Positions 22,690 to 62,251 of a stretch of DNA of 64,000 nucleotides are shown piece by piece. The translations under genes were made by a program, and so were the position numbers. The stretch covers positions 56,461,301 through 56,525,300 of the forward strand of contig NC_088776.1 of the NCBI RefSeq assembly GCF_954871325.1. The letters run 5' to 3'. Origin of the DNA: Gordionus sp. m RMFG-2023. Lineage: Eukaryota > Nematomorpha > Gordioida > Chordodea > Parachordodidae. Numbering within the stretch: position 1 is the first letter of the stretch; each line of letters opens with the position of its first letter. Under the pieces are notes generated by a model. That model was not told where the DNA came from. It was given only the letters and a program-made list of their open reading frames with translations, and did no database searches.

Positions 22690-24165
22690 TTAGTTTTCAC
22701 CTTTTCTGGTGGTAAGCTCCTCCATCTTCCTCCACTTTATGTTATTCATACTATCTCTTTTATGTAATTTATACTTCTTCATATTGGCTCTAACTTTATG
22801 GTCCATTAATGTTTTGGCCTTTCTCTTTTACGTTTACCCTCACTTCCAAACTCTCGTTTCTATGTAGTTCATAGGCCTTCTCATCGTATGCCTATACCAC
22901 CTAAGACTGTTTACCATTATCTTAGTCTTAATGGGCACTACCTTTAAACTTCCTAGTATTCTTGTACTTCACATCTTATCCTTTCTTGTTACCCCAGCAA
23001 TCATCCTCAACATTCTCATCTCCATAGTTTGTAGACTTCTCTCGTCTGATTCTTTGGTTGGCCATGTTTCCGAACTATATAGAATAGTTGGTTGTACTGT
23101 GGAACTGTAAATTTTTCCCTACAATTTGTCTGGGATTCTTTTGTCAAAGAGCACTCCAGATAGATCTCCACTTTGACCACTTTTGATTAATTTTACTCTT
23201 TATCCCTTTCTCTATTGTACCATTTGTTTGTATAGTGGAGCCCAAATATTAGCAGCTTTCAATTGCCGATATCTGTCATTCATTTATATAAATGCTCTCT
23301 ATTTCATTTCCTCCTATCACCTTATACCCGGTCTTTTCTCAATTTACTTTTAGTCCATGCTTTTCTAAGATATTTATCCAGCTCACTAATCTTTTTTCAT
23401 TTCATCCTTGGATTCGGCAAGTATCACAATATCATCTGCAAATATCATATTCCACGGGACTGTTTGTGGTATAGATGGTGCTAATACATCTATTACTGTT
23501 ATGAAGAGAAGTGGGCTGAGAGCCGACACTTTGTGCTACGGACCATTGTTGTATGGTCCATATACATATCCTTTTATTTATATATTTTTCGGGAACCTTT
23601 TTGTGACATAGCTTCCACCAGATAAGTTTTCTTATGATTCTATCGAAGGCTTTTTCTAGATCGTGAAAGACCATGTATAGCTTTAAGTTCTTTTCCCTGT
23701 ATTTTCTCATTTGCCTAATTGCGTGGATAGCATCAGTTGTTAATCTTCCAGACATAAAGCCAAACAGAGTTTCTCCTATTTTGATTAGTCTCTTAACATT
23801 TTTTCTATTATTTTTCGTAGAGTTTAAGACAGTGTGACATTAGTTTTATGCCCCTGAAATTTTGACAATTGTGTGGATCCCTTCTATTTTTGAAGATAGG
23901 AACTAGATAGCTCTGCCTCCATTTTTGAGGGATTTCTTCATTTCCCAGTATTTTATTATACAGATTTGTGAGGTATTCCATCATATGGAATAAAAAAAAC
24001 ATGATTTGTGAGTTATGATATTTATAAAAAATTTTAACAAATTTTTCATATCTAAACACAATGGTTTTTGCCCTCCCACCTGTATAAAATCTACATTCAT
24101 TAGAAAGTTTTAAATACTTTAAAACCTTTCTAAATACTCTTTTAAAAAAACCTGCCATCATAGAT
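22690..24165 (-). pseudogene. RTE-type non-LTR retrotransposon, 5'-truncated relic
   Basis: Read on the minus strand from 24,165: 'NLYNKILGNEEIPQKWRQS', then 'LVPIFKNRRDPHNCQNFRG' and 'IKLMSHCLKLYEK'. After a frameshift, 23,755-23,432 gives 'MSGRLTTDAIHAIRQMRKYR' and motif A 'MVFHDLEKAFDRIIRKLIWW'. Downstream, in broken frames near 23,230-23,170, there is an 'LGSTIQTNGTIE..' thumb segment, and near 23,010-22,980 a fragment of the C-terminal 'EMRMLRW..GVTRKDR' region. This order is diagnostic of RTE-like elements. The endonuclease domain is missing, as is usual for target-primed insertions that end early. Nothing is intact. Confidence 0.85.
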
Positions 24166-33464: not shown

Positions 33465-33522
33465 ATGAATAAATTTTTACCAATTTTAGTACTACTTATT
33501 CTGACTTTCTGCGAGTCCTACG
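33465..33522 (+). CDS. Micro-exon gene, exon 1 (signal peptide)
   Basis: ATG opens the reading MNKFLPILVLLILTFCESY plus one base: a lysine, a hydrophobic core LPILVLLILTF, and a small polar end, as in a secretory signal. It is followed directly by the donor GGTAAAT (GT at 33,523). The exon ends after codon base 1, the same phase as every micro-exon downstream. An in-frame stop would soon follow if it were not spliced. It is the only such exon I found ahead of array block B. Confidence 0.55.
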
Positions 33523-36500
33523 GTAAATAAAATAATTGTAACAATTTAAATATTTATTTCCATTATATTATAAATATATGTTTTAATTTTATTTTTTTCA
33601 TTTAGAGACTGAAAGTAAAAATTTAAAACTTTTTATGTCAAATATAAGAAAAGATACATTTCAATTATATGCATTTTTACTAGGTTTTTTCTAAATAGAA
33701 ATAAATTCTTAAAATTTTTTGAAAGATTTAAATGATAAATAAGATGATACTCACATTCCAAATGAGCAAATAAATTTATAAAAAAAAAGAATGGTAATTA
33801 AATTAATTATTTATTAAATAGAAAACTTTTAAATTAAAGTAATTTCCCTCTGAACTTCGAAAAACCTGTAAAACACTCAAAAGTGTATTGCCCCTCTATA
33901 TATAGGAAATATGAGAATATTGATATTCTAAGAAAATTTAATATTAATCTATGTTAAATTTTTCTCTAGCTTAAATATTTTTTAAATATTTGACATTTTT
34001 TTATATAAATTATTATTCATATTGTTTAAATTAAAATTTGTTTAATCAGAATTAATTTAAATTAATGTTATTTTTATAAATAATAAAATTAAATATTATG
34101 AAAACTTAAAAAATAATTATTTCTTTAATTGATTATAAGAAATTTGTTTCAAAATTATTTAGGGAAAACGTTAAAATTCAAAAGTTTTTAACCTAAGAAA
34201 AAGACTCGAACTATTTATCATATGAAATAACTTATGCCTTTAATTTTACCTTTATATTACTTATTGACACTTTATCTGAACCTTATATAAAATATATAGA
34301 ATAGAATGCAATGAAAATTTAATTGATTATATCAAAAAATATTATGTTAATTTATAATCGAACACAATTTTTTAGATATATTTTTTTTATTTCTATCAAA
34401 ACTCATCATAATACATGTCTTGATAAATGGATATTATTTTAAAAATTTATTATCTTTTTAATCATGGATGTTTAATTATTGTTCTCCCTTTTAGATATAG
34501 AAAAATATTTCCAAGAAAAATTTATAGGTAAAAGTTTTTAAATATAAAGATAAATCACCAATGTTATTAATCCCTACTTTTAAAAATAATACCCTAACCC
34601 TATCATTAATTACCCCCAAAATAGCATACTATCTAACTTATCAATAACAAATATCACGTTTATTAGTTACCATTTTTAAAAAAAAGATTGACTGAAAAAA
34701 TTACAAACGATGACTTAATTTTATTTATTAAACATTTATAAATATTTTAAAATAATATAATTATTGATTATAAAAAGAATATATATAATTAGTGTATAAA
34801 TTTTCTTTTTATTATTATCTGCTAACAAAAAATCTTTGTACCAAGAGATAAGGCTTTGATTATAATAATATAAGATGGATTATCAATCAAGGCATTAGCA
34901 ATTATAAATAGAAAATAATTTTTACAGTCAGTTTCTAAAAAATATTGTAATATTTTATAACTAGGCTAAGATTAATCGATAAGGTTTGAATTAAATTCTA
35001 TTTCGCTTTCACCTTTGGGGATTCTTTAAAACTCAATTTTCTATTAATATTAACAATATATTTGTCTTCCTTGATTTTGTTAAACAACTTTCCGAAAATC
35101 TGTTTAAACCTTCGAAGCACACATAATAAATAAATATTTATGATAATAAAAAATCCCCATTTTACAAACCTAGGATAAAATTTCTGTAGTTTTAATTGAC
35201 TACTTATATTATTCTAGCAATTAAAATTTGTTTTTTTTTTGTCTGAAGGTTAATGCACTAATATAATATTATATAAACTAATCATTAATTTATCATGGTT
35301 ATCCATATAAAAATATTTACATTAAGAATCTATGAAAACTTAATAAAAAGAAGAAAACAAAATCACCTAGCTGATTGCATTCAAAGAAGTTTCAAAATAC
35401 ATCTTAAAGAATGAATGAATCATCAGTCAAGGTGGGTATTATGTTTGCTTCTATCTTATATCTTCAGGCTTACGAAAAATAAATCAGTTTTGAAAGTAGT
35501 TTGTATTTTTTTTTTTATGGAAATAAATATTGATCAAAAAAAATCGTTTTATATTTGCTTAAATCCTTTAAATAATATAAAATAATAGAATAATATTTTA
35601 AATTAATGTCTTGAGAAATATCATATTTTTATTTTTTTAAATTAATTCGTGTTGGAATAAATGAATGTTTAACTATTTTCTTTTATTTAAAAACAATCTC
35701 CGTTAGAAATCGAAATAAACCAAGGGATAAAAGGTAAAATATTTTTAATATAGGACAAATATATCCTGTTTCTAACCCTTTTTAAAAATGATACACTAAC
35801 GCTATCGTTATTTGACCCCAAAAAAGCGCTCTACTGAACTTCCCTAAAATAAATAGAGCGCTTATTAGCCACCATATTTAAAAAGCTACTTAACTAGTTT
35901 AATTTAAAAATCATTTAAAATAATGATTTTTTAATCATTGTACCAAGATAATAAAACTTTAATTATAAGAAATGACGGATTATCAACCAAGGCATTGGCT
36001 TAACTCTAGCAATTATAAAATACACAATGACATTTAGAGTCAGTTTCTAATAAATATCCTAATGTGTAATAATTATTTAGGATATATTGATGTGGTGTGA
36101 TATAAATATTTTTTGGGGTGTGGTCACCTTTGGAGATTCTATAAATATTTACCCAATTTTCTATATTATTATCTTGTTTTTTCGGTTTTTGCTAAACGCT
36201 GCTCTACCTGGACAGCTGTTTAAACCTTGAAAGCACTTAATAAATTAATATAAATAACCAGGAAATAATCCCAATTAGAATACAAACCTTGGTCATAAAT
36301 ATTTTAATTGTTTTAAGGGTACAAGATATTTTAGCACTATATATAAAACATTATACTTTTCAAAAATAATAATATAATAATATGCATCTCTTCTACCTTT
36401 TTTGTTGGTTTGTTCTATCCACTAATATATATTACTAGCTAGATAGACAATTAATTAATTTAAATATGTATCAATAATTATAAACTAGAGACAAGCCATT

Positions 36501-39500
36501 TGTTTACCCATATAAATATATTTATATTAAAATTTCGTGAAAACTTAAAAAGAAAATTAGATGATATGTCACCAGATAAGCTTCAAAGTGTATTTTAGTG
36601 AATCTGACCAGTAGGTTATTACATCTCATTGATTCTCTCATATTTCATCATGGCTTACGAAAATAAAATCAGCTTTAAACATATCTTTGAATAACTTTTT
36701 ACTCATACAATTTAAAAAAAATTATTAATCTAAGATATCGCTTTTTTTTGTATTTGCTTTAATAATTTATATAAAATAATATTATTTTAAATTAAATACA
36801 TATGAATAAAATATTATTTTTTTAAATAATAATGTTCTAAATTAATTGTTGAAAATTTATTTATGATTTTTTAAATTTATTTAGACAAAACTATTAATAA
36901 AATAATGATTTAAAACATTAAAATATAGTTTTAAATAATAATAAAAAAATGATCAGCTTTTTCATAAGGAATTTCTATTTAAGTGATATCACACCTTGAC
37001 TTACCCCTTTCTTCAAAATATTTATTAACATCCCTATTAATTTTATCTATATCACCTGAAAGATATATAGAATCATACAACCTTCAAATAACTCTTATCC
37101 TTCCACCGCTTATTTAGATAATATTGACTCTGACCTTTAACCTCTCTTATTTAATATGACTTCTTAATTAAAATATATTTACGACCTAAAAAATTATTTC
37201 AGATAGAATATTTTTATTTCTATCTTAAGCAATTAATAATCATTCATGTCTTGAGAAATGCATATTGTTTATTTTTCATAATTATTTGAATTATGGATGT
37301 TTAACTATTTTCTTTTATTTAAATAAATAAATCTTTATATTATAATAATATTATCAATCTCCCTTCTAGAAATCGAAGACTTAACGAACAAAACGATAAA
37401 TGGTAAAATATTTTTAATATAGAACAAATAACTACGGTAACCCTTACTTTTAAAAATGACACATTAACGCTATCGTTATTTGCCCCAAAATAAGCGCCCT
37501 ATCGAATTATCCTAAAATAAATAGCGCGCTTATTAGCTAACATATTTAAAAAAATTGTTTAACTAAAAAATTTTATAAATAAATTAATATTTTTTGTTTA
37601 ATTTAAAAATCGACTATCATTTAATAAATAATAATTGATTATAAAAAGAATTCATAAAATTTAAGTATAACAAATACTTTTCTTGTCATTAATATCTAAC
37701 TATCTTTGTACCAAGATAATAGAACTTTAATTAAAATAATAAATGATGGATTATCACTAATCTTTGATTGAATTCTAGCAATTATAGAATAGACAATGAT
37801 ATTTAGAGTTAGTTTATGAGTATATTAATGTGTACTAACTGTCTAGGATAAATTGATGTGGTTTATATAAATATTTATTTTTGGGGTGGCGTTACCTTTG
37901 GAGATTCTATAAATATTAACCCAATTTATTATTATTTTGTTTTTTCAGTTTTTGCTAAACGCTGCATCTACCCGGACAGCTGTTTACTTGAAAACACTTA
38001 ATAAATAAATATAAATAATCAGGAAATAACCCCAATTGGAATACAAACTTTGGTCATAAATATTTAAGTTGTTTTAATGGTACAGGATATTTTAGCATTA
38101 TAAATAGAACATTTTACTTTTCGAAAACAATAATATAATAATATGCATCTGTTATACTTTTTTTGTTAGACCGTTCTATTCACTGACATATAATACTAGC
38201 TAGATAGACCATTAATTTATTTAAATATATATCAAAAATAGCAACAAGCCATTTACAGCGATAAACCTCAAATATATATTAATAAGTTAAAAACTACTTA
38301 AAATAACATTAGATACACTCTAATTTAATATTATATTCTTATAAATCATTTTAATCAAATATATTTGAGATTCTAAATTACACAATCACTCAAATTGATC
38401 ACAACTCGATTTTAAATAAGGGCCTTTGCCCTCCTTGAGGCATTTATACAGCTCTATTTTATCTAGCTGTTTAAGAATACACATTCTGATTCTACTTACC
38501 ATCAGTATTCCTCCCTCTCCATCACAAACCCCACCATACGATAATGTTATTAATGATATGGATAAATTACCACATTATAAAACCATCTTTACAATATAGG
38601 CTTTCATATCATGATCTCATATAATAAACTCATTTGAGAATAGAATATCAAAATTGTACCTATTTGATATTGGAATGGGCAATATAATAACGAATTATTC
38701 CATTTAGAGTTTTAAATTCATTAGTAAATGGAATAAATGTGATGAATGTCAATTACATAAATTTCATCACATTCTATTTATATGATTTTTAATTTGCAGA
38801 GTATTATATACATTTAGCCATAAAACACAATTGTAAATTTTAACAATAATGATATTTACCTTCACCCTCAATCTGGTAAAAATTTCAAATTCATGAGCCT
38901 ACCAGACCTCAGCACATCACCTACCAAATATAACTTCCCACTGTGTAATAAACTTTAAAGTAACCAAATTGGGCTATCGAAATCAGAAAATCAAGTGTCC
39001 TAAATCTGGGCTACCTATCTTATCACCAGCCATTCCTCAAACCCTTCCTTTTTCAGTCCTTGCCCTCACAACTAAAAACCCATAGTCACTATTCCCACCT
39101 CATTGGCAGATGTGCTTACTAGCCCAACAGTCCCTATCTCCACTGGCACAAATGTTTTCAAGTTTTACCCAGACGACTCTACAGATGTATAAATAATTTC
39201 AGTGACACCAAAATCATTTGTAATTTCTCGAATACGTAAGGGAGCAAGACTTCAAGTTTCGAGACATTTGTGGAAAGGTCACGTGTAATAACTACATTCC
39301 ACGTTTTAGCCATTTTATTGTAATATAAGTATAAACAATTAAATAATTAATAAAAAAAATATTTGCTATTCGTCCAATTTTAGATTCTTTATATATAAAA
39401 ATTAAGCCCACCATGTCTTTTTCAAATGTGGTATGCCCATTTATCATCTCATATTATGGCATGTGCAATTATTAATTAAGTATTTTTAATTTTTTTGGTT

Positions 39501-45500: not shown

Positions 45501-48500
45501 AGAAGTCAACCCCAGGACCCTTCTCTGCTCTTCTCCATTTCCGAAGACAGCGGGTACGAATATCTCGAGATTTTTCAATCACAAACTTTGACCAGCTCCT
45601 AAGCAGTGAATACCTTCGTCACATCATCAGTCTTAGACTTAATTGTGATATGTCATACCCTATCACTATATATTCTGTCAAACATCGATCAACTCTAAAG
45701 GCAGTTATTATTCTTTGCACAGCAAACACGATAGGTGTGAATCAGATTCATTTGATTTTATACTAAGTTTTCATATTTTTTATAATATCAGACAAATACA
45801 AAAATATTATATATATTACCAAAATTAAATTCATTATAGATCATAATTTTATCTTTATTCATAGTTTAATTTCATGAAATATCCAATATATTAATATTGC
45901 TCAAACACATTTACAAAATTGTTAATAATTACCATGACATTTTCCAATTATTTTCCCTAATTATTTCATAAAACATCCAATAGATTCATATTACATGTTC
46001 TTTCTCTCGCCGTCGACAATTTAATAAATAAGATAATTTCATATCATATAGTAAAATTCAAACAGCATTCATTTATTTATACAACCATGATCATTCATAA
46101 AGCATGATATAAAATATCATTTATATAATATAATATTAGTTTAAATTTAATTAATATAAATAAAATATTATTTTTTTAAATAACAATATAATGTTCTAAT
46201 TAATTCTTTTGTATCATGGATGTTTAATTGTTATATTCTCTTTTTATTTTTATAATTATAATCTTTATATTTTATTAATATTATCAATCTCCCTTTTAGA
46301 AATCGAAGACCATATGAACAAAGAGAATAAAGGTAAAATATTTTTAATATTGAACAAAAACTAGTGTTGCTAACCCCTAATTTTAATAATGACAATCTAA
46401 CATTATCGTTATTTGCCCCAAAATATTTTTTTAAATAAATATTTTTATAATAGAATTAATACAATTTATCGACCAAATCTATTTATTGCAAACAATCATA
46501 CACATTGTTTTCCAAATAAAACTTTCTGCTATCATTTCAGCAAGCTCATAATGCCACAATAATTAATTCATTGTAAATAATGGAGGTTATAATTGAATTT
46601 ATTAACTAAAAAATAAATTTTTTATATTCACAAAATATCGATAGTTGGTAGTAGAGATAGATTAATTTCAGTTATCCTTTATAAATTCTCTGAAAAGAGT
46701 ATCAATAAATTTAAAAGGTAAAAATAATAATAGGAAGACACCGCCGTCGGAGGCGGCATAATTTTTTTAGGGGGGTAGGCAAAGGTTTTTGAAGGGAGTT
46801 TGCATCCAGTGAAATCCTGTCATGTAGACGCTGACTACTTCCCATTCTAATATATAAAATACATATTTATAAAAAAATGGTATAATCTTTAAATGTATAT
46901 TATATACTTTCTTTGTTTATTATTATAATTTTATTTTGATAATATTGATATTAATATAATTTTTAAAAAAAATGATAAAACACTAAAATATTAAAACAAC
47001 TATATAAAAATATGTAAAATATATTAAATTACTAAATAAAAATATATATTAATAGTATCGAAGGTTCTAAGAAGTGCTTAATTTAATAATGAAAATGTAC
47101 CTAAAGAGCAAGTATAATTGTTTAAAAATTTCCAATTGTAGTTTTTGTTTATGAAATAAGGATTAGCGATTTTCGTTTGTTATGCTAAAAAATTTTCATA
47201 ATAAAGTTTTAAAAAAAATATATGTAGACTGTGAAAAATTGCCATTAATTGAAATGTCTATTGGCTAAAATATAAAGTTTAATTTTAAATATTTATTAAT
47301 TTTATTATTATCCCCACAAGTAAGAGGGTTTGTATTAATTGATGAAGGAAAGGATGAGCAGGTTGCATCCCAAATAAGGGATTTTCCATTGGACCAGGGG
47401 GTACAGGTTAAACCATCGGGTCTCAGGCCGTATTGTAATGAGAGGTTGGTAGGTTGAAGGATGTTGGCTATTTTACCTTATTAAAAGCGTTATGTATAAT
47501 TTTATTAATTGCTTTATGCCGGAGATGGCATCCTTGACTGCGGGTGCAGTTTAGACCGTTCTGGCGTTAGGTTGAACGGGTAGGCTGCACTGGTGGCAAG
47601 AGCATGAATGTGTAAGCCAGCATTCAAGTCTAAAGCCTATAGTAACTCTCAATTGGTCATTGGTTAACAGATTGTCTAAGGTTTGGCTTGGAAGTGCTTC
47701 GAGCCATTCATGCCTGCCGTATTTATCGTTGTTTTGTAATAGTTGTATATCGCTGATTTCGGTAGAGTTAAGACTATTTTGTAATTTTTTTATTAAGGGT
47801 TCGATGATAGATTTTTTAGAGATTTCGGTAGGAAATGTATAACCGTATGGGGTTAGGAGATTCCATCTTTCTATTGCTGCTGAATGAAGATCATCATGGG
47901 AAGTTATGAATGATGAGATCGCAGAATTTAGCGATAGGAGATTTGATATAAATAGAGAAAGAGAAAGTAGTTCTAAGAAGATCAAATCGATACCATCTAG
48001 TTTAGCGGGTAATTGGGCTAAGTGCCAATTAAAGTCTGATAATGAAAAGTTGAGGATCCAATCTATAAAGGTCTTTAAGCGAATATTGTGTTGAATGAAA
48101 AATTTTGAGGAGGTGAATGAGGAGGATGAGTGGAAGAGAAATGAGATTTTGGGAAGATATAAACACTTTTTTAAGTAAAAAAGCTGGTGCGATGAAATTT
48201 GGTTGCTGAACTTTCCAAGTTTTGCATCTCAGAAAAAGTTTTATCGATAATTTTTTCGGGTATATTATTATTAAGTAATGGGGAGCCCAATAGTTGGATA
48301 TCTTCTTTTTCGATAATAGTGTATTCTTTAAATAAATCTAAGGGAATATCGGGGTTGTGGAAGCAAATTTCAGTTGTAGTTTTATTTAATTCTAAACCTA
48401 TTTTAGAGTATTCTCTTTCAAGGTAGTTACGGGCTTTGGTTATTTGATGTGGATTACCGCAAAGGGTGCCATCATCGGTACCATAGGTTTAGGTCGAGAT

Positions 48501-51500
48501 CAAAATCAAATTTAAGATCATTCATCATATTATGGATAGCTAAGCAGAAAAGAATAGGGCCGAGGGAGTCGCCCTGTTATTCTCCCTCTTCAGAGTATAT
48601 AACGCTATTAAAGATGAGAGTCTATGAAGCGCGAGTATTGGGGGAAATTATCGAAAAAAGATTCGAGTGCCAAGGAACGTGAATATTGAAAGCATTCTTA
48701 AAATCGATTTTACATAAAACGGAGTTTATTGGTGGATGTTGAAGGTAGATTCATAGGCAATGAGAGCCTATATCTATTAGAAACAATTAATAACTTTGTT
48801 AAATCATGCGGATTCTTTAAATATGTACCCTATTTTTTATTTACTATTAGTATAAATTAAAGATATACAAAATTAATTTTTAAATTATTATCAATTTTTA
48901 GATCTAAAGCAAATTTTAAATAAATATTATTACTTTTAATGGTACATTTTTTTTATAAAATAATTACATTAATTTTATTTTCATTAAGATTTTTAATTTT
49001 ATAAAATTTTATTCAGATTTTTATTATTACCTATATCGTATATTATACGAATATGAAATTTAAAAAAATGGTTCTCATCAAGTTAATATTTATTTCTTAA
49101 TTTTGTCTATTACTTCTATTTATAAGTATAATCAATTTATTATTACCAAATAAACTGAAAAAAATGAAATATTATCAACAATTGAAATAACACATTATTT
49201 TAATCTCAAATTACAATAATTTTGTTTCCTTAATTGATTAAGAGAAATTTGTTTCAGTTAAATAAGGGAAATATGTTATTTCAAATGTTTAAACTTAAAA
49301 AAAAGACTTGAAAACTCTCTCATCATTTTTGGATTAGCTTTGTAAAAATTTTATAGTTTGTTAAACCTTAAAACAATATAGAATACATGAAATAAATATT
49401 AAATTGAATATTTAAAAAATAATAGGTTAATTCTTATTTTTTAATATTTAATCAATATTTTTACAAAACTGTTCATTTTCTAATAATTCCCATTTATATT
49501 AATCTGTCATAATCAATAGAACTTATAATTAGTTATGAAAATCTCATTATTTATGCAAGGTTTATTGAATAAAATCTAGCGATGATACTTTTTAATTATA
49601 ATAACAATTAGTTTAGTGGAAATTATTGTGCATTATATTAACCTACTCACTTATAATAAACATTTCGAATTAAAAAAATATGATCATAAACTTAGTAAAT
49701 ATTTATTCTTTATATTTTATTTTACTAAAATTAGCTTCTGAATTACAAAATAGCTCTGAAACAAGTATTATTAGCTCTAGTTTTTTTAATTAATCAAATA
49801 TAAAAATATGCGTTTTTTTCATATCTACAATTATATCCCTACCGTCATAAAAGAGGGATAAAACATAATTCAAAACTAAATTTTATCTCTCTAATTTATG
49901 CGAAGTTAATGGAATAAAATCTAACGATGATAGTTTTTATGTTAATTAGTAAAGTATAAAACAATTTATTAAATGTGGATATATTTATGCATTACATTAT
50001 CTAATACACATTATAAGCAATCAATCCATAAGCAAATCATATTGATTTGAATCTCTTTATTTTTCTAATTTAATTCAATATATTTTGTTTTTTTCTTAAT
50101 CCTAATTTGCACGATATTTATAATAATACTATCAAATAAAATTAATTTAAAAAATAAAATTGTCTTTATTTAATAACATATTAGATTAAGTATTGCCTAT
50201 TATCTTAAAAAATTTTTAAATATTAAGCTAAAATATTTTGAGAGATAAAAAACTTTATCAATTTGAAATTCAACCTATATAGGTTTATAAATAAAATTTA
50301 TAACCCTTGTTGAATAATCTTTAAAGCAAGAAATATAGTAGAATAACTTTCCTAACCCTATAATGTTCTAAATAATTTTTATTTAAAATTTTAAAGTAAT
50401 TTTTGATAAAATCTATCAGTAAAATAATATTTTATAAACTTAAAAATTTCATGAGGATTTTTTTACAACTAATATCACGTCTTGATTTAACACTCGCCTC
50501 AAAATATTTAAACTGCTAACACTCTTATGAATTTTATATATATCACTTGAAAGATATATAGAAACTAATAGTTCCTTCATTCATCAGCTTATTTAGATAT
50601 TGACCTTGATCTTTATCTTCTCTTATATCATACTTCTTATTAAAAATATAATATCGACATAAAAAAATTCTTTTAGATAATTTTTTTTGTATTTTATCAA
50701 AATTAATATTATTTATCATTGATATTCTGGGAAATGTCATATTGTTTATTTTTTGAAATTCATTCGCTTTTAAATCTTGTATTTTTAACTATTTTTATTT
50801 AAACAAATATGATCCTTATATTTTATTAATATTATCAATCTTCCTTTTAGATATTGTAAAGGTTATATACTCAAAAAGAGAAGGCAAAATTTTTCAAATA
50901 TAGCACAAATAACCAGTGTTTCTAACCCCCACTATTAAAAATAACACGTTAAATCTATCATTATCAGCCGCAAAAGAAGCGCCCTACCTAATATTTCAAA
51001 AATAAATAGCTCTCTTATTAGCTTCCATTTTTAAAAAAGCTGATTGATTATAAAAGGAATTTATAAAATTTAAAAATTCATATTAATGATCATCTATGTT
51101 TTGAGAAATGCCATATTGTTTATTTTTTTTGTTTTTGAATTGGATGTTTAAATATTTTCTATATATTTAAATAAATATAATAAAACTTTAATTATAATAA
51201 TAAATGATATATTATCAATTAAGGTATTATTGAACTCTAGCAAATATAAAGTTGACAATTACTTATGCAGTCAAATTTTGAAAAAAAATATGCTAGGATT
51301 AATGAATGTTTGAATAAAATACTACTTCAGGGTGAGGTCACTTTTGAGGATTTTTAAAATATTTACCAATTTTTAATAACATTTATTTAACATGTTTTAT
51401 CGATTTATGTTAAAATACGCGATAGGTGCTAAGACAGATTTTTAAACCTTCAGAGCATATAATAAATAAATTATAATGATAATGAAAAATCTCCAATTGG

Positions 51501-54500
51501 GTTACATGGTCATAAAAATTTACATAATCTATATTGTCGGTCACCCAGATATGTTACTACTTTATATTAAAAATTGTACCTTTCGAAAAAATAATATATT
51601 AATATGCATCTGTTTTACCTAGTGTAATTAATTTGCTATGTTGTAAAATTTACAACCCAATTTTGTGTTCAGGCTTGCTCTAAAACCCGGGGTTCAGACC
51701 GTGGTTTAGACTGGGAGTTTAAACCCGTGGTTCAGACACTAAGTTCAGACCCGGGGTCCAGACTTGTGGTTCAGATCAAAGGTTTAGACTTATGGTTTAG
51801 ACTCAGGATTTAGAAAAACGAAAACTAAGAAAAAATAAATCTCATTTATTAATCTTAAATCTTATTATACATTCTAATTATAAATTAAAACTTTGTTTAT
51901 TATTTTATTATTCATTAATCTCATTTCCTTACCAGTTAAATATTTGTTTAAATGGTGCTTTTGATTGGAGTCAATTTGACCTAGCCATTTTTTCTTTCCA
52001 GACTATGTTAAATTCACATACATAATTATTAGTTTATATAAAGTTAACCCTTTTCAAAACTTTTGTGGGATCTATAGGATATCTACTATAACTTTACAAA
52101 ATTTCTTCGTTTTTTTTTAAAACTTTACCAAATTAATCAACATTCGTTATTTAAATATTTTTGAAGTTAAGGTTATTAATTAATATTTTTTTTAGTTATT
52201 TTATAATTATAACTTTATAAAATTTTTATTAGGGATTTTTTCTAAATAATATCAAGTCTTTACCCCTCTCCTCAAAATATTTTAACTCCTAAAACACATT
52301 TAGGAATTTTGTCCATATCACCTGAAAGATATATAGAAATTAATAGCACTTTTTATTAACTCACTTATTTAGATATTGACCTTGACCTTTATTTTCTCTT
52401 ATATAATGAGTTCTTATTAAAAATAAATAATTTTTTCTATTTTTATCCAACATTGATATTTTAATTTTACTTTTAATGATGTATGTTTAAATATTTTTAT
52501 TTAAACAAATATGATACTTATATTTTATTAATATTATCAATCTCTCTTTTAGATATCAAAGACTTTATGAACGAAAAAATAAAAAGTATTTTATTATATA
52601 CGGTCAAATAACTTTTAAAATTAATATGTTAACGATATCGTTATTTGTCACAAAAAACGCCCTGCCGAATTTTTCAAAAATAAATAGAACCCTTAATAGC
52701 TTCTATTTTTAAAAAGTTGATTGACTAAAAAATTATTTATAAATATATAGAAAAATCAAATAATATATTTATTGATTATAAAAAGATTTATAATTAAAGT
52801 ATGTTAAATAATTTTCTTGTCAATAATATCTGAATCCTTGTATCAAGAGATAGAGCTTTAATTATAATAAATATGAAATTATCTAGAAAGGTATTAACAA
52901 TTATAAAATAGGCAAAGATTTTTAAAGTAAGTAGAGGGAAATTTCTTCATGAGTACTTGCTAGTCTAGGATTAAAGGATGTGGTTTAATTCCTTTTTAGA
53001 TTTGTCACTACCTTGGAGATTCTTTAATTATTTTCCTAATTTCTTATAATATTATATTTGTCATTTATACGCGGCAGCTACCTGACAATTTTTTAAAAAT
53101 AAAGAGAACTTAATAAATAAATTAAAATTCCCAAACGGGATAAACAACTTTGTTTTGAAAAATTTGAATAGGTTATTCGCCCTTAAGAGATAAGTTACTA
53201 CTCTATATAGGATAATATACTTTTCGAAAACAATATAATAAGCACTTATTGTACAATTTTTGCTGGACCGTTCTATTCAATGATATAACTTTCTATGCAT
53301 CAATAAAAATAGCGACATGTCGTCTTGGTTACCCATATAAATATATTTACCATAAAATTTATGCCTAAATAAAACGAAAATAGCATGTCACCAACTCATT
53401 TGTCAAAGAATTTACAAAATAGATTTTAATGTGAATGAATAATTTATCAGTCTAAGTGTATTGATATGTTATTGGTTGAACATAATTTATTATGGCTTAC
53501 AAAAATAAAATCAATGTTATTGTATAAAATTTTAATCTTATAATTTAAAAAAAGTATTAATGAAATATTACATTTTAATTTTTTGTTAGTTAACTTCAAT
53601 CAATTAAGCACTACAATAATATTTTGAATAAAATTAAAATATATTATGCAAAAAACATATTATGTTCTATAAATAAGTTATTAGTTAAATATCTATTTTA
53701 TTTTTAAGTTATTTTCGATAAAAGTTATCAGGAAAATGATGTTTTAAAACAATAAAATAAGTTTTTAAGTAAAATTATAAACTTATAAATTTTACATGAG
53801 GGAATTTCTTGCAAATCACGGATTTACCCCTCTCCTCAAAATATTTTAACTCCTAACACCCTTAGGAATTTTATCTATCTGAAAAATATATAAAATCTAT
53901 TAGCTCCATTTCTCTTATATAAAAACTTCTTAAAATATATAATAGACAATTTTTATCAAAATTAATGTTAATCATTTGATGTTTTGAGAAATGCCATATT
54001 GTTTATAAAATTTCATTAGGCTATGAACTATTTATACTACATTTAAATAAGATCTATATTGATATTAACAATCTCCCTTTTAGATATCAAAGATTTTTTG
54101 ATACAGGAAAAACAAGGTAAATTTTTTTATTTATAATGGACAAATAACCATTGTTGCTAACATCTACTTTTAAAAATGATATGATAACGCTATCGTTATT
54201 TGCCCACAAAAAAGGGTTTTGGTGAATTTCTCAAAAATTAATAGCACGCTTATTAGATTCCATTTTTAAAAAGTTAACTGATCATAAAAATTTATAAAAT
54301 TTCAAAATTCATATTAATAATCTTCATTTATATTTTGAGAAATACCATATTGTTAATTTTTTAAACTTATTCGCTTTTGAATCATGTAAGTTTAACTATT
54401 TTCATTTAAACAAGTTGATCTTTATATTTTATTAATATTATCAATTTCTCCTTTTTAGATATCATAAATCTTACGAAACAGACGATGAAAGGTAATTTTT

Positions 54501-57500
54501 TTTTAATATAGGGCAAATAACCAGTGTTTCTAACCTCTACTATTAAAAATGACACGTCAACGCTATCGTTATTTGCCCCAAAAGAAGCGCCCTATCAAAT
54601 TTTTTTAAAATAAACACGCTTATTAACTTTTAAAAAGTTGACTGACTAAATAATTATTTACAAATATATTAATATTTTTTTGTTAATTAATTAAAAATAA
54701 AATAAAAATTTATTATATAATATATTTATTGATTATAAAGATTTTTTATAAAATTATAAATAATTTTCATGTCATTAATATCTGATGACAAAAATCTTTT
54801 TATCAAGTGATAATGCTTGAATTAAAATAATAAATGAGGAATTATCGCCAAAGGCATTTTGTGAAGTCTAGAAATTGTAAAATAGGCAATGATTTTTACA
54901 GTCGGTTAAGGAAAATTTCATATGTGATATCTAGGCAATGATTAATCGATGTGGTTTCTTTTTGGTGGTTGCCACCTTTGGAAATTATTTAATAATTTAC
55001 TCAACTATCTATTATATTATATCTGTCATTTATCAGTTTTTGTTTAACTGATAAAGCTTTTAAAACTTCAGAACACATAATATATATAGTAATAAAAAAT
55101 TCATAATGGGAAAAAAATTTTGGTCAGAAAAATTTAAATCGTTTATATACTCACCCTTACGAAATAGCACAGTATCTGACCTTTATCTTCACTCATATAA
55201 TGACTTTTCATTAAAAATAGATTATTATAAAAAAAAATTTAAGATATAATTTTTTGATATTTTTATCAAAATTCATATTACTAATCATTGATGTTATGAG
55301 AAATACCATATTGTATATTTTTTTATATTCATTCGCCTTTGAATCATGAAAAAGTTTAATTATATTTTATTAATATTATCATTCTTCCTTTTAGAATTCA
55401 ATGAATATATCCAAATAGAATATGATGGTAATTTTTTTTAATATAATGACCAATGCTGCTCACCGCAAATTTTATAAATGACATGTTAACGTTATCATTA
55501 TATGTTCCAAAATGAGCACCCTACCGAAAATCTTAAAAATAAATAGTACGCTTATTAGCTTCCATGTTTCAAAGTTAATTAAAAATATTTTTTTTATATT
55601 TTAAAAATGAACAAAATTATATAAAATATTTATTGATTATAAAAGAACTTATAAAATTAATTGATTGTCATTAATATCTGATGACAAAAAACCTTTTTTT
55701 TAAGACATATAACTTTAATTACGATAATAAATGAGAAATTATCCAGAAAGGTTTTGCCGAACTCGAGAAACTGTAAATTACCCAATAACTTTTACACTCA
55801 GTTCTGAGAAATATCAATGTACTAATTAGGCTAGGATTAATACATGTTGTTTGATAAATTACTTTTGGATGTGTCGTCACCTTTGGAGGTTCTTAAAATA
55901 TTTACCCAATTTTCTATAATTTATGATGTTTTATCATTTTTTGTTAAATGACGCTTTAGCTACCCGGACAGCTATTTAAAACTTGAGACATAATAAATAA
56001 ATATAAAAGATAATGAAAAATCTTCAATAGGGATACACACTTAGGTCATAATAATTTGCATAGTTTGAATGGTCACCTTTACTAGATATTTTAATCCACT
56101 AACATACTAATCAGATAGACCATTATATTTTTTAAATGCGATCAATAAAAATAAATTAGCGATATGTCATTTTGGTTACCCATTTAAATGTATTTACATT
56201 AAAATTTCATGAAAATCTAAATTAAAAAAAAACTAATATGGCATGGCTGATTTGAATTCAAAAAATCTACAAAATTTTAATAAATGAAATCATCAGTCTA
56301 GGTGGGTATTATATGTTATTGGTTCTATCATAATTTATCATGGCAAAAATAAAATAAGTTTTTAAACATATCTTTGAATACATTTTATACTTATATTTTA
56401 AAGAAAAATTTTTAATCAAATATTACACTTTAATTTTTTTCTATATTTGTTTAAATATTTAAACAATATAATAATAAATTAAAATATTTTTTTTTTAAAT
56501 AATCATTATTCAATATTATTTGTTAAAAATATCTATTGAAATATTTTTAAATAATTTTTGATGGAAACTATCGAAAATAATGTTTTTAAACATTTAAATA
56601 AGTTTTAAAGTATAGGGGAGACCGGGGATGGCTTGGACATTTTCTTTCAAATTCTAATAATATTAATTTTAATAGACTGATCCGAATAAGTAAAACATCT
56701 TCTGAAACCCAAAAGTATATTTTTGAAATAATTAATATTTCTTCTTTAATTGTCTACATTTTTAAATTAAGGAAGTGGATTTAAAATAAATTATCTTCTT
56801 TATATTGACTTATATTATCATAACTTTGAAGTTGTAGTCTCTTATGGCTATGAGACTGATAAGGTATTATTTTCTAAATTTACAGGGTTGGAAATATTTA
56901 ATGGTTGAGATGTTAATTTTTTAAAAATTATGGGTAAATAATCCATCTCTTTAAATATATCAGAATGGTATAGATATACCTTAAATAATTTAATAATATT
57001 TTTAATAGTAAGAGCGAGTGGTAATATATCCTTTAGTACATTAGGAATGTCATAAATACTATAATTTAGATTGCTGAGCATCAAGTAGCACGAAGATATT
57101 ATAATGTTTAATGACCCAAAAATGCACCTGTCAAGGGGTTGTATTTTATTTATGAGTATATGTGGATGTAAGGATAGTAAGATTGCCTAGGCAAATCAAT
57201 ACCAAGAGATTGGTGAATGAATGTCTAGAATTTAAAACACAGGCTTTTCAGGTAGTGGCCTCTCATGATCCTCAAAATGTTCTAAATAATCCATAAATTG
57301 TTTCTTGCATCCAACCTGACCCATTTGTAGCAGCCATTACAACCATTAGGTCTCATCTATTATAAAATAATAAAAAAAAATTTCCTTGGGAAAAGAAACA
57401 TAGGTGGGATGGCATTCCCTACAGCATTAATAGCGAGAAGCTACTAGGGTTCCCTTTTCATCAGATGTCATAGCTACAACTTGCCTTTGACTTTTCTGAG

Positions 57501-60500: not shown

Positions 60501-62251
60501 AAAATTTATATTAATAATCATTCATGTTTTGAGAAATCCCATATTATTTATTTTTTAAAATTCATTCGCCTGTGAATAATGGATGTTTATATATTTTCTT
60601 TATATTATAAATATAATATTTTATTATATTAATATTATCATTCTCCCTTTTAGTTATCAAAACACTTGCGCAAAATGAAACAAATAGTAAATTTTTTTTA
60701 ATATAAGACAAATAACTAGTGAGGCTAACCATTACTTTTAAAAATGACAAGGTAAGGCTATCGTTATTTGCCCAAAAAAACTCCCTGCCAAATTTTTGAA
60801 AATTAAATAGCGCGCCGCTTATTAGTTTCCATTTTTAAAAATATTTTTGAATATATCAATACAATTTTGTTTTTAATTTTTAAAAAGAATTTATAAAATC
60901 AAAATATAAAAAAATAACTATCTTCTTATTAATATCTGCCGACAAAAAATCTTTGTAAACTTTATTTATAATAATAGATTATGGATTATCAATCAAGGCA
61001 TTGGTTGAACTATGGCAATTATAAAATAGACAATGATATTTAGAGTGGGTTTTTGAGAAATACCTTAATGCACACTAATTATCTAGGATAAATTAATGTG
61101 GTGAGAAATAAATGCTTTTTGGAGTGTCTTCACCTTTAGAGATTAAAATATTTACCAAATTTTCTACATTATAATAATCTTGTTTTCCATGTTTATGTCA
61201 AAAGAAGCAGCCGCTACCCAATTAGCTGTTTAAACTTTCACAGTATATAATAAATAAATAAAAATAATCAAAAAATATCCCCACTTGGAATACAAATTTT
61301 GATCATATAAATTTGCCACGGAGACACTACCGGGATATTTTACTTACTTTTCGAAAACAATAATGAATAATATCAATTAAAAATTTTATGATAACTTAAA
61401 TTAAAAATAAACAAAAATGTCATGTCACCAGCTAATTTGAATTCAAAAGTTTCAAAATGCATCTTACTAAATGATAATCTGTCTAGGTGGATATTGTTTG
61501 TCATTGGTTCAATCTTAATTCATCATGGCTTACGAAATTTAGAATCAATTTTGAACGTAGCTTTGAAAATATGTTTTACTATCTATATAATAAAAACTCT
61601 TATAATTTAGAAAATATTATTGACCAAAAAAAATCATTTTAATTTTTATTATATTTGCTTTAATTATTTAAATAATATAGTATTTTAAATTAAAATAAAT
61701 GTTCTATTCCATAATCAACTCAATATTCAACCCTACCATTTTGGATTTTTTTAAAAATTTGTATGATATATAAAATTTTAATTCCTAACAAAGCTTATAG
61801 ACTATATTTAAATTTAAATAAAAATTAATTAAAAGCTAAAAAAGTATAAATTTTATTAAATAGCTCTAGAACAACCCTTTAAAATAAAATAAAAATTGAT
61901 TTTTTTTCTTTCAATTTTTTTTATGGATAGAAATCATATCACTTAATATTTGTATAAAATTCTAAACACAATTATTACACTTTAAATATAAGTAGTATGG
62001 CTTAAATCCCATATTCATTGAAATAAATGCATGACATTTTCGTGTCTCTGGAATTCTTTTGGCCGTTAAAAAATTATATAGATTTCAACGTTGTTGATAA
62101 TATATATAATCTAAGGATATCAATTCTCGCAGCAAGTTGAAGATTTGCTCTAGCTTTTAATCTCTTAGTAATTCCTTTTAAACTGTTGCAAGGAGTTTTG
62201 CTATGTGCAGTTTCAAGAAAATACTCAGTTTCAATCCTAAAATCATTATAG
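33465..62251 (+). CDS. Candidate micro-exon gene for a repetitive secreted protein (spliced, ~29 kb)
   Basis: I do not recognise this protein. Visible here: a first exon with a signal-peptide-like sequence, a possible 9-nt exon, ten micro-exons (nine of 33 nt, one of 27 nt) and a possible terminal exon with a stop. All introns would be phase 1. Across the ten micro-exons the phase-1 frame has no stop, while phase 0 is stopped in nine of the ten. Each 33-nt exon adds 11 residues with hydrophobic residues mostly at positions 2, 5/6 and 10 and charged residues elsewhere, consistent with an amphipathic helix. The product would be about 150-160 residues. Most introns are tandem ~1.65-kb units; others are enlarged by transposons. 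The design recalls schistosome micro-exon genes and aphid bicycle effector genes, but homology is not claimed. Expression is unproven. Confidence 0.6.
33606..33614 (+). CDS. Micro-exon gene, possible exon 2 (9 nt)
   Basis: The acceptor is a long T-rich tract, 'ttttatttttttcatttag', and the donor is 'gtaaaaattt', close to those in the arrays. Nine bases keep phase 1 and read E-T-E across the first junction. An alternative donor at 33,684 (TAG|gttttttc) would give a 78-nt exon, also phase 1 and open; unspliced, the frame stops at 33,692-33,694. So the acceptor is better supported than the donor choice. Confidence 0.4.
33695..34364. other. Intron sequence between exon 2 and array block B
   Basis: A+T-rich. 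34,110-34,215 resembles 49,215-49,310 ('ttaattgatta.aagaaatttgtttca'). A further 21-nt phase-1 candidate exon (34,163-34,183, acceptor 'attatttag', donor 'gttttt') exists here, but it is weak. Confidence 0.4.
34495..34527 (+). CDS. Micro-exon B1 (33 nt)
   Basis: Acceptor 'gttctcccttttag', donor 'gtaaaa'. Phase-1 reading of the ten complete codons: IEKYFQEKFI, with AT at the start and G at the end joining neighbouring exons. Phase 0 stops at once (TAG). Confidence 0.65.
35707..35733 (+). CDS. Micro-exon B2 (27 nt)
   Basis: Acceptor 'caatctccgttag', donor 'gtaaaa'. It is six bases shorter than the others, so the frame is kept. Reads IEINQGIK in phase 1. The length change by exactly two codons argues for selection on frame. 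Confidence 0.6.
37370..37402 (+). CDS. Micro-exon B3 (33 nt)
   Basis: Acceptor 'tcaatctcccttctag', donor 'gtaaaa'. Reads IEDLTNKTIN in phase 1. The next exon is 8.9 kb downstream because transposons fill the intron. Confidence 0.65.
38271..39429. other. Intronic spacer, no gene seen
   Basis: 38,860-39,310 is less A+T-rich than its surroundings and could be the worn 5' region of the LINE that follows, but I cannot read a domain in it. Confidence 0.4.
39430..39800. repeat. Third copy of the foldback-element arm
   Basis: It matches the left arm at 4,360-4,630 ('cataaaccagaaatcatttggttatgg' region). Continuing, it matches the reverse complement of 5,290-5,360 ('agaagcagttgcttc'). It ends at or just before the LINE fragment. 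Confidence 0.7.
40758..41010 (-). repeat. Gypsy 3' LTR
   Basis: Aligns with 44,197-44,506 over most of its length: 'tattgccgttgg.cagttgag' at one end, 'aaaaataacacgact' in the middle, 'acatca..atgaca' at the other. It is about 57 bp shorter because of internal deletions. Confidence 0.85.
41011..41024 (-). other. Polypurine tract of the gypsy element
   Basis: On the minus strand it reads gtaaggggggagga directly before the LTR start TGTCAT. This is the expected position and composition for the plus-strand DNA primer. Confidence 0.75.
42541..43072 (-). pseudogene. Gypsy reverse transcriptase / RNase H remnant
   Basis: On the minus strand near 43,070-43,048 the catalytic box reads 'YYMDDVLV', followed by 'LEEVFQRIREKGSQANREKS', the usual sequence after that box. 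Downstream, near 42,650-42,545, are 'LSKKETLAVIFRLTIREYLI' and 'VYTDHKPL', the RNase H region. Stops lie between the blocks. The segment between 43,080 and 43,516 on this strand is not readable as a known domain, and the plus-strand frames there are shadows. Confidence 0.8.
43517..43720. mobile_element. 204-bp MITE inside the gypsy element
   Basis: The ends are long and nearly perfect inverted repeats: AGGCCGCATTCAAAGTGGGA at the left is exactly complementary to the right end, and pairing continues to about 34 bp with one mismatch. Flanks share AAATAA (43,511-43,516 and 43,721-43,726); the exact duplication length is uncertain in this A+T-rich context. It is younger than the gypsy copy it interrupts. 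Superfamily unknown. Confidence 0.85.
44197..44506 (-). repeat. Gypsy 5' LTR
   Basis: Longer partner of 40,758-41,010. On the minus strand it runs TGTCATGTTTGATG to CCAACGGCAATA. The bases next inside (attgctgccgtaacc) would be the primer-binding site, but I cannot name the tRNA. Confidence 0.8.
45064..45402. mobile_element. 339-bp hAT-like MITE with exact 8-bp target duplication
   Basis: Flanked by CTATAGAC on both sides (45,056-45,063 and 45,403-45,410). The termini are TAGAGATCTAC and, in reverse, TAGTGATATCC, about 10 of 13 matching. Subterminal 'gggccgggcc' motifs resemble those of the local hAT family, but the terminal sequence differs. It interrupts the C-terminal region of the LINE. 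Confidence 0.85.
46130..46435 (+). repeat. Tandem ~1.65-kb unit, block C (fragment)
   Basis: It holds only the part around the micro-exon, from 'attattttttt..aatgttctaa' to 'atcgttatttgcccc'. Both sides are other sequence: 45,741-46,129 is A+T-rich with no gene seen. Confidence 0.85.
46300..46332 (+). CDS. Micro-exon C1 (33 nt)
   Basis: Acceptor 'tcaatctcccttttag', donor 'gtaaaa'. Reads IEDHMNKENK in phase 1; the other two frames hit stops. It matches exon B3 at 24 of 33 bases. Its survival in a small isolated fragment of the unit is notable. Confidence 0.65.
46436..47309. other. Intronic spacer with a G+C-rich hairpin
   Basis: A+T-rich, except 46,738-46,850, where 'ccgccgtcggaggcgg' can fold into a small hairpin followed by a G-run. 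This could be the worn 3' end of the minus-strand LINE. No gene seen. Confidence 0.4.
47310..48750 (-). pseudogene. Non-LTR retrotransposon of the YLDDG clade, minus strand
   Basis: Read from the right: motif A 'KIDFKNAFN' (about 48,700), 'GDSLGPILFCLAIHNMMNDL' (about 48,575-48,520), catalytic 'YLDDGTL' in a shifted frame (about 48,480), 'IQLLGSPLL' (about 48,300). Then comes the longest frame (47,985-47,551, 144 codons) with 'HEWLEALPSQTLDNLL' and 'RVTIGFRLECWLTHSCSCHQC'. Next is a C-terminal stretch 'LRPDGLTCTPWSNGKSLIWD' (about 47,430-47,380), which is typical of these elements. Cysteine and histidine residues in HSCSCHQC suggest a zinc-binding element near the C terminus. Several stops make it inactive. 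The plus-strand frames here are shadows. Confidence 0.8.
48751..50339. other. Intronic spacer, no gene seen
   Basis: 49,215-49,310 matches 34,110-34,215, the sequence just before block B, so this spacer may include a duplicate of that intron. A short ATG frame at 49,052 (MKFKKMVLIKLIFIS) ends in a stop without a donor and is not called. Confidence 0.45.
50340..51630 (+). repeat. Tandem ~1.65-kb unit, block D
   Basis: One unit with a micro-exon and one deleted unit lacking it: at about 51,180 the sequence jumps from 'tttaaataaatataa' to 'taaaactttaattataataa'. The block ends near 'tgcatctgttttacct'. Confidence 0.85.
50851..50883 (+). CDS. Micro-exon D1 (33 nt, GC donor)
   Basis: Acceptor 'tcaatcttccttttag'. 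The donor is AAG|GCAAAA, a GC instead of GT in an otherwise standard context, usable as a GC-AG intron. Reads IVKVIYSKRE in phase 1; phase 0 stops at the third codon. Confidence 0.55.
51667..51813 (+). repeat. G+C-richer minisatellite, unit near 'gtggttcagactc'
   Basis: About ten diverged 13-15-bp copies of 'cggggttcagac / gtggtttagact'. It separates blocks D and E and is conspicuous in this A+T-rich DNA. The remaining spacer (51,814-52,214) has no gene. Confidence 0.8.
52553..52585 (+). CDS. Micro-exon E1 (33 nt)
   Basis: Acceptor 'tcaatctctcttttag', donor 'gtattt'. Reads IKDFMNEKIK in phase 1, close to the apparent consensus of the family. The junction base is A, giving N instead of D or E with the next exon. 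Confidence 0.65.
54084..54116 (+). CDS. Micro-exon E2 (33 nt)
   Basis: Acceptor 'caatctcccttttag', donor 'gtaaat'. Reads IKDFLIQEKQ in phase 1. Confidence 0.65.
54459..54491 (+). CDS. Micro-exon E3 (33 nt)
   Basis: Acceptor 'caatttctcctttttag', donor 'gtaatt'. Reads IINLTKQTMK in phase 1. It is only 375 bp after E2. The two exons agree at 21 of 33 bases, while a 68-bp intron segment after each agrees at 59 of 68. Confidence 0.65.
55395..55427 (+). CDS. Micro-exon E4 (33 nt)
   Basis: Acceptor 'cattcttccttttag', donor 'gtaatt'. Reads FNEYIQIEYD in phase 1; both other frames have stops. Confidence 0.65.
56848..57720 (-). pseudogene. Pogo/Tigger-type transposase (DDE_1), broken
   Basis: Read from the right on the minus strand: 'LYIRSPQSASLVKASGFNKS' then 'VNLFFSLYKDILVKYKL' (57,670-57,560), the stretch before the first catalytic Asp in this family. 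In a shifted frame comes 'TTVQNPRKIIAQKSQRQVV' then 'AMTSDEKGTLV' (about 57,530-57,440), then 'MGQVGC' (usual SGWM region), 'KIQPLDRCIFGSL' (about 57,145-57,105), and 'SIYDIPNVLKDILPLALTIK' followed by 'FKEMDYLPIIFKK' (57,060-56,910). Order and spacing match a pogo-like transposase of about 400-500 residues. The N-terminal CENP-B-type DNA-binding region is not readable. Multiple stops make it inactive. Confidence 0.85.
58274..58496. mobile_element. 223-bp MITE, termini TAGTGTTGTTAAACGGC
   Basis: The terminal inverted repeats extend about 50 bp ('gttgttaaacggctcgtttt' at one end and its complement at the other). The target duplication ATAAAATG is exact (58,266-58,273 and 58,497-58,504); eight bases suggests hAT. 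Related copies lie at 60,219-60,408 and, degraded, at 31,927-32,100. Confidence 0.9.
58505..60015 (-). mobile_element. hAT element relic inside the pogo-like element
   Basis: The right end reads, in reverse, CAGTGTTGTTAAAATAGC, followed by 'gctac' and 'gtagc' subterminal repeats (59,910-60,000). A similar 'agctactttt' set lies at 58,507-58,560, probably the worn other end. A transposase N-terminal part is inside. Confidence 0.7.
59119..59744 (-). pseudogene. hAT transposase N-terminal part (BED-type finger), broken
   Basis: 59,744-59,535 contains 'YRFRCKMCGKVLSSNHTSSS', a BED-like zinc finger start with CxxC; the matching histidines are lost by frameshift. 59,325-59,119 contains 'SQKLADKVIMKFIIDTVQPL' then 'FLVDNGSF', the conserved segment before the catalytic core of many hAT transposases. 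The order is right for one gene on the minus strand. The catalytic and dimerisation parts are not seen. Confidence 0.8.
60219..60408. mobile_element. 190-bp MITE, second copy of the 58,274 family
   Basis: Starts TAATGTTGTTAAAAGGC and ends GCCGTTTAACAACACTA, with the exact target duplication CTTATTTA (60,211-60,218 and 60,409-60,416). It splits the array landmark 'cttatttagatattgacc'. Confidence 0.88.
60654..60686 (+). CDS. Micro-exon F1 (33 nt)
   Basis: Acceptor 'tcattctcccttttag', donor 'gtaaat'. Reads IKTLAQNETN in phase 1. It begins TT rather than AT or AA and ends in A, so both junction codons differ from the usual D/E. It contains a potential N-glycosylation triplet only if joined to a suitable next residue. 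Confidence 0.6.
61706..62168. other. Putative last intron sequence
   Basis: A+T-rich, unrelated to the tandem unit. No further micro-exon with both splice sites and a multiple-of-three length was found by eye. Confidence 0.35.
62169..62251 (+). CDS. Micro-exon gene, possible terminal exon
   Basis: The acceptor 'gcttttaatctcttag' precedes an exon that is open in phase 1 for 26 codons, beginning IPFKLLQGVLLCAVSRKYS, and stops with TAG at 62,249. A stretch this long without a stop is unusual but not rare by chance in this DNA, so it rests mainly on position and phase. Other 3' exons, inside or beyond the window, remain possible. Confidence 0.3.

Follow-up and report, generated by a model that had tools for sequence, protein, structure and literature searches.

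A candidate secreted-protein gene of tandemly duplicated 33-nt micro-exons in the horsehair worm Gordionus sp.

In the 287 Mb genome of Gordionus sp. m RMFG-2023, a horsehair worm of the phylum Nematomorpha, we observe a long same-strand array of short exon-like segments, most of them exactly 33 nt long, for which the best-fitting reading is a gene of tandemly duplicated micro-exons, each carried with its own intron unit; its transcription and splice junctions are predicted. We consider it probable that this is one of a family of genes encoding fast-evolving secreted amphipathic-helix proteins, which grew by duplication of exon together with intron. The transcript would begin with a signal-peptide exon, probably followed by a 9-nt second exon and then by dozens of symmetric micro-exons spliced in one phase. 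The array starts within a stretch of 64,000 nucleotides, hereafter the window (C2:56,461,301-56,525,300). An earlier note on this stretch had described ten such segments and suggested an insect setting; the segments are confirmed as real and the array is larger than first described, whereas the suggested setting was wrong.

The exon array and its signal-peptide exon

All ten plus-strand segments of the earlier note (Table 1) are present at its positions, each preceded by AG and followed by GT or GC. Read with two leading bases, all ten are open; with none leading, nine meet a stop and one is open, and with one leading, three meet a stop and seven are open, figures identical to those reported before. 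The signal-peptide-like exon that had been placed just upstream in the matching phase is likewise there, with relatives elsewhere in the genome; its signal peptide was judged from sequence and hydrophobicity. The possible exon 2 starts 83 nt after exon 1, and a relative of it at C2:56317230 on the minus strand keeps both splice sites while differing at two of the nine exon bases. An eleven-codon exon recurring with its own intron unit, as had been proposed, would still best account for the constant length, the single open phase, the whole-codon differences, a signal-peptide exon that matches in phase and has relatives, and the open exons elsewhere. The unit length of about 1.65 kb given for it fits some spacings, but spacing in the window ranges from 375 to 8930 bp.

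Stretches related to the representative unit of Table 1 lie at 34-36 kb, 46 kb, 50-56 kb, 60-61 kb and 12.7-16.5 kb of the window. Within the 8.9 kb that separate the exons at 37370 and 46300, the DNA at 38000-46000 is GC-richer, shows strong negative GC skew and contains an inverted repeat (43517-43720); this block is perhaps inserted DNA.

Table 1. Predicted exons, unit copies and signal-peptide relatives (window positions unless a contig is named)
Feature	Position	Strand	Remarks
Exon 1	33465..33522	+	58 nt: start codon, signal peptide MNKFLPILVLLILTFCESY and one base; donor GTAAAT
Possible exon 2	33606..33614	+	9 nt; AG before, GTAAAA after; same phase
Micro-exon	34495..34527	+	33 nt
Micro-exon	35707..35733	+	27 nt
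Micro-exon	37370..37402	+	33 nt
Micro-exon	46300..46332	+	33 nt
Micro-exon	50851..50883	+	33 nt; GC donor
Micro-exon	52553..52585	+	33 nt; donor GTATTT
Micro-exon	54084..54116	+	33 nt
Micro-exon	54459..54491	+	33 nt
Micro-exon	55395..55427	+	33 nt
Micro-exon	60654..60686	+	33 nt; last in window
Representative duplicated unit	36995..38240	+	exon 37370 with flanking intron
Unit copy upstream of exon 1	12923..12955	+	no GT donor at the usual place (by eye)
Unit copy upstream of exon 1	13822..13854	+	intact; 33 nt
Unit copy upstream of exon 1 (C2a 45000)	15000..15031	+	32 nt; out of frame
Signal-peptide relative	C140:17771		unit at 20023
Signal-peptide relative	C2:55952074		unit at 55986411
Signal-peptide relative	C2:59936996		unit at 59972573
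Signal-peptide relative	C2:60117671	-	unit at 60090761
Signal-peptide relative	C2:56259230	-	units at 56187031 and 56147111

The end of the feature had been set at 62251; the last of the ten exons ends at 60686, and the array itself continues past the window with 27 further called copies, 26 of them in frame, the last ending at C2:56,585,104. Since that position is close to the end of the examined DNA, the extent is a lower bound, and the array, if one gene, would span at least 90 kb. A profile begun from nine window copies and rebuilt once identified 66 units in 261 kb (the window and further DNA), of which three lacked exon coverage and were dropped. An exon caller that ignores frame and favours no length assigned exactly 33 nt to 46 of the remaining 63 copies, a multiple of three to 58 and a length within 21-33 nt to 59; the other in-frame lengths in the array include some of 21, 27 or 30 nt. 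The expected phase is open in 59 of the 63 copies, and the other two phases in 21 and 35. Judged by eye, two of the four copies with a stop are miscalls (C139 27389 and C2a 116628) and two are frameshifted (C2a 45000 and C57 8285), and one copy within the array (141661) has lost its usual acceptor. By place, the copies that are both in frame and open make up 10/10 of the window gene, 26/27 of those further along the array, 1/3 of those upstream of the signal-peptide exon and 19/23 of those at other loci, where four copies fail. The decayed upstream group (C2:56.474-56.476 Mb) had no signal-peptide exon of its own that we could find nearby, and the decay of copies outside the gene would fit the gene reading, the basis being these three upstream copies, one of them intact.

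The signal-peptide exon also belongs to a family. DNA similarity covers it at 13 other places in the genome, and all seven protein matches to it (itself included) are open, at 65-100% identity; the copy on C140 shares its end phase. Five of the 13 places are followed downstream, on their own strand, by an exon-bearing unit (Table 1), and for the other eight, none among the best-scored candidates was clearly theirs. Conversely, we found no signal-peptide exon near the unit groups at C2:57.45 Mb, C2:58.20 Mb and C5:1.17 Mb. Two further groups, at C2:58.45 and 58.52 Mb, were rejected as exons because similarity covers only the intron part of the query.

Instead of a single gene of at least 90 kb, the array could represent several genes or transcripts with alternative starts, a doubtful but live alternative that overlaps with our preferred reading and would change only the boundaries. 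It draws on spacings of up to 12 kb, the largest in the array, on a terminal exon that did not emerge when the tails of four arrays were compared for a shared last exon (one tail by its first 41 matches to other contigs), and on two signal-peptide-like starts inside the array (C2a 85346 and 153702), both of which lie in unit tracts. Against it, every unit of the array has the same strand and the same phase, and our searches turned up no further relative of exon 1 inside it. We infer a single gene.

Other parts of the window contain further features. Two minisatellite arrays of ~15 bp units (6119-6503 and 10777-11286), about 4.3 kb apart, have units that look mutually reverse-complement, and the pair resembles the ends of a large DNA element. 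An ORF with a hAT dimerisation match lies at 2102-2587 on the minus strand, and a reverse-transcriptase ORF matching Gordionus proteins at 17082-17909 on the plus strand; at 23432-23839 on the minus strand there is a second, weaker reverse-transcriptase match that falls short of its cut-off. In the genome at large, 57 COX1-like matches, nearly all on C1-C5 with some on small contigs, appear to be many nuclear copies of mitochondrial DNA; several are open except for TGA, one gives a sensible reading under the invertebrate mitochondrial code, consistent with a nematomorph, and the best is 64% identical to a generic insect COX1. A published COI primer for grape phylloxera (PMC7718921) has no exact match, and that insect was rejected as the source.

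The encoded peptide and its divergence

Among 45 distinct 33-nt exons, hydrophobic residues occupy position 2 in 42, position 10 in 33, position 6 in 30 and position 5 in 23, against an expected count of ~16.5 per position, and positions 10, 2 and 6 have the 3-4-4 spacing of a hendecad. When 35 exons are joined in order as a predicted spliced peptide, the top hydrophobic period is 3.66 residues (11/3 = 3.67), with a power of 13.2 that equals the largest of 500 shuffles (99% level 9.3), the shuffles having used a coarser grid that slightly favours the observed value; a second peak stands at 2.74, that is, 11/4. Each 33-nt exon appears to encode one hendecad, eleven residues in what would be three helical turns. 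The two 21-nt exons would each encode one heptad, also keeping register; exons of 27 and 30 nt obey that rule less closely. Part of this periodicity is due to common ancestry, but the hydrophobic positions persist as other positions in the exon change. Taken exon by exon, the hydrophobic moment is highest at 90-95 degrees (0.41) and is 0.385 at 100 degrees, against 0.300 (standard deviation 0.021) in shuffles; at 180 degrees it reaches 0.39, almost the peak value. A helix is thus the preferred reading but has a competitor, a strand being compatible with the per-exon data alone. On the helical reading, every added exon would lengthen a single amphipathic helix, and as one exon equals three turns, arrays could change length without leaving register. 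The match of exon length to helical repeat would offer a simple physical reason for the one exon size.

The peptide is rich in Lys, Asn and Glu and has few Cys, Pro or Gly, with two Cys in the 450 residues of the 45 distinct exons. Repeats of 11 residues with a hydrophobic face are typical of group-3 LEA proteins and exchangeable apolipoproteins, and the same anatomy might accordingly encode a stress or lipid protein, either LEA-like, for cyst drying or freezing, or apolipoprotein-like, for lipid uptake. Such a role seems unlikely to us. The composition speaks for it, and LEA_4 does surface in a Pfam search, although its score of 12.0 bits (E=0.2) falls far short of the cut-off, 51.1; no family passes its own. 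The hydrophobic face is moreover Ile-rich, whereas the LEA motif is Ala-rich, and the exons diverge more than the introns, which one would not expect of a lipid or stress protein with a housekeeping role. A search of the first 181 residues against solved structures gave one match, with E=0.77. The 390-residue spliced prediction has no match among 7,993 scored annotated-protein candidates of ~215-682 residues, drawn from a database that includes other Gordionus proteins; models outside that length range would be missed.

The divergence was measured over 55 open exons of 21-33 nt, compared pairwise and ranked by the identity of their downstream flanks. Where downstream identity exceeds 0.9 (4 pairs), mean exon identity is 0.87; at 0.80-0.90 (17 pairs) it is 0.61, at 0.7-0.8 (357 pairs) 0.52 and at 0.6-0.7 (777 pairs) 0.49. 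The upstream flank, which is the fairer control because the ranking used the downstream side, remains at 0.75, 0.70 and 0.68 in the latter three classes. At 0.5-0.6 (305 pairs), exon (0.51) and downstream (0.55) identities are alike, with the upstream flank at 0.70, so that the most diverged pairs show no excess of exon divergence relative to the downstream side. Among 17 hand-chosen pairs, exon mismatches exceed intron mismatches in 16, ten with p below 0.05. Summed within-exon pN (0.295) and pS (0.257) are similar. These figures are descriptive and come from pairs that share members and from local alignments that flatter the introns; taken so, exons that change more than introns yet keep their frame, as expected of diversifying selection, suggest that such selection acts on an exported protein.

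Reading frame and growth of the array

The units might also be a neutral satellite-like or transposon-derived repeat that has spread splice-like motifs along with a non-coding exon-like piece. Many copies exist and some are broken, and in both of the units tested, the intron immediately beyond the donor contains a piece of dispersed repeat: in one, a segment ~30-145 nt after the donor (L039:9835-9950) has copies on C1-C5 at ~75% identity, and in the other, a shorter piece has copies on several large chromosomes. The exons themselves behave differently, with one open phase only and length differences that are mostly whole codons. In the expected phase, every one of the 46 exons with a length of 33 nt is open (12 and 25 are open in the other two), and when windows of this length are moved to 30 different offsets within these units, 1-37 of the 46 are open. 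Among exons of in-frame length, 55/56 are open, as against a mean of 21.5 and at most 34/56 in 500 base shuffles. Gaps of 1 and 2 nt occur in the pyrimidine tract and downstream flank and none in the exons, in rows that had been prefiltered for in-frame exons. We regard a neutral origin as very improbable.

Evidence free of homology agrees in length and strand. A scan of C2a 63401-154000 for five pyrimidines, AG, L nucleotides and GTAA, with L from 20 to 45, returned 24 plus-strand sites at L=33; the remaining 25 lengths gave 0-4 each, and the minus strand gave two at L=33. All 24 are open and 23 are exons already called; the remaining one (C2a 140742) resembles unit-body sequence and was taken as chance. 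Two exons on C5 that were used in no profile are, by eye, both 33 nt long and open.

The least probable alternative, by a small degree further from belief, has each unit open a small secreted-peptide gene of its own, with the hydrophobic reading of the pyrimidine tract as that gene's signal peptide: the exon frame does continue into the tract, and in seven of the 56 in-frame open exons (e.g. window 55395 and 52553) an in-frame ATG lies at least 12 codons upstream with a mostly hydrophobic start, but 49/56 lack such a start, a count on which we rejected a separate start codon per unit, the tract varies in length by other than whole codons, and the conserved upstream sequence looks, in our own reading, like a branch point and acceptor tract.

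Returning to the gene of duplicated micro-exons, its growth would proceed by duplication of an exon along with its intron, most simply through unequal crossing-over between similar introns, for which the dispersed repeat within the introns is a possible substrate. The units at C2a 99994 (C2:56531294) and C2a 104700 (C2:56536000), 4.7 kb apart, have identical exons and a flank identity of 0.99, and some duplication is thus recent. The units at C2a 101702, 106409 and 108090 differ in exon length by a whole codon at flank identities of 0.95-0.97. With whole-codon exons in one phase, the gain, loss or skipping of an exon would not shift the frame. Because of the secretion signal, the speed of change and the parasitic life of the worm, the likeliest role for the product in this arthropod parasite would be a host-facing secretion. 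A bolder extension, which we rate as rather unlikely, is that the parasite uses one-exon-per-hendecad arrays as a combinatorial system in which recombination, and perhaps exon skipping, varies helix lengths and surfaces while frame and register are kept automatically; if true, a host-facing protein could diversify without ever breaking.

Comparison with known micro-exon and repeat-exon genes

To our knowledge, few molecules are known for host manipulation by horsehair worms, and the array would provide these animals with a candidate secreted gene family, one with no annotated match in our protein search. Its product, as predicted, shares with apolipoproteins and group-3 LEA proteins, as generally described, an 11-residue period and one hydrophobic face. 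In those proteins the repeats lie within larger exons, whereas in Gordionus each repeat is predicted to be an exon of its own.

Micro-exon genes for secreted proteins have been described from schistosomes (PMC5825161) and from aphids and their kin (PMC9168663); among the papers listed by a literature search, judged by titles and abstract, none described such genes in Nematomorpha. The parallel that the earlier note drew with both groups holds for the anatomy and for the fast change, but kinship with bicycle genes is unsupported, as the array lacks CYC motifs and its bearer is not an insect. According to the schistosome accounts (PMC5825161, PMC4671649), micro-exon genes (MEGs) have a signal peptide in the 5' exon and short symmetric exons, 6-36 bp long, whose skipping leaves the frame intact; alternative splicing varies their proteins, and MEG-26 proteins have a predicted amphipathic helix, with tandem internal duplication in some members. 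The Gordionus array resembles them in its signal peptide in the 5' exon, its short symmetric exons and its secreted protein of a parasite, all of which are predicted here. As in MEGs, the predicted coding sequence consists mostly of symmetric exons of 6-36 bp; of the long flanking exons of MEGs, the coding part of exon 1 measures 58 nt here and the last exon was not found in four array tails. Unlike schistosome MEGs, the array belongs to another phylum, is far longer and devotes one exon to one hendecad, and its known exons would all derive from a single 33-nt exon copied along with its intron; it is on these features that we set the two apart.

As described in PMC9168663, bicycle genes have many micro-exons starting at codon position 2, and megacycle has a secretion signal and 118 exons in ~100 kb and grew by internal tandem duplication; CYC motifs are also absent from some putative bicycle homologues and from megacycle. 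The predicted Gordionus gene likewise has numerous small internal exons that begin at the second position of a codon. The structural classifier for bicycle genes (threshold 0.72), computed by hand with an assumed last exon of 10-150 nt and a gene length of 27.8 or 90.3 kb, gave 0.990-0.998 for ten exons and >0.999 for 36, and its positive outcome in Gordionus suggests that gene structure alone is no proof of kinship across phyla. Unlike bicycle genes, which belong to Hemiptera (aphids, phylloxerids or coccids), the nematomorph array has no CYC motifs and almost no cysteine, and its repeat is a single 11-codon exon.

The growth of the array, in turn, is most like that of the 90-bp-exon LRR genes of Tetrahymena, for which PMC6564038 reports tandem equal-length exon/intron units of the same phase, associated with a retrotransposon and attributed to proposed unequal crossing-over, with exons encoding 30-residue repeats mostly under purifying selection. 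The tandem, equal-length, same-phase exons duplicated with their introns are alike in both; unlike the 90-bp LRR exons of the ciliate, those of Gordionus are 33 nt long, encode a hendecad and diverge fast. We would assign the Gordionus array, which has neither CYC motifs nor an LRR match that passes its Pfam cut-off, to none of the MEG, bicycle and Tetrahymena LRR groups, from each of which it also differs in phylum. A further case in a separate parasite phylum would make the repeated origin of micro-exon genes for secreted proteins directly testable.
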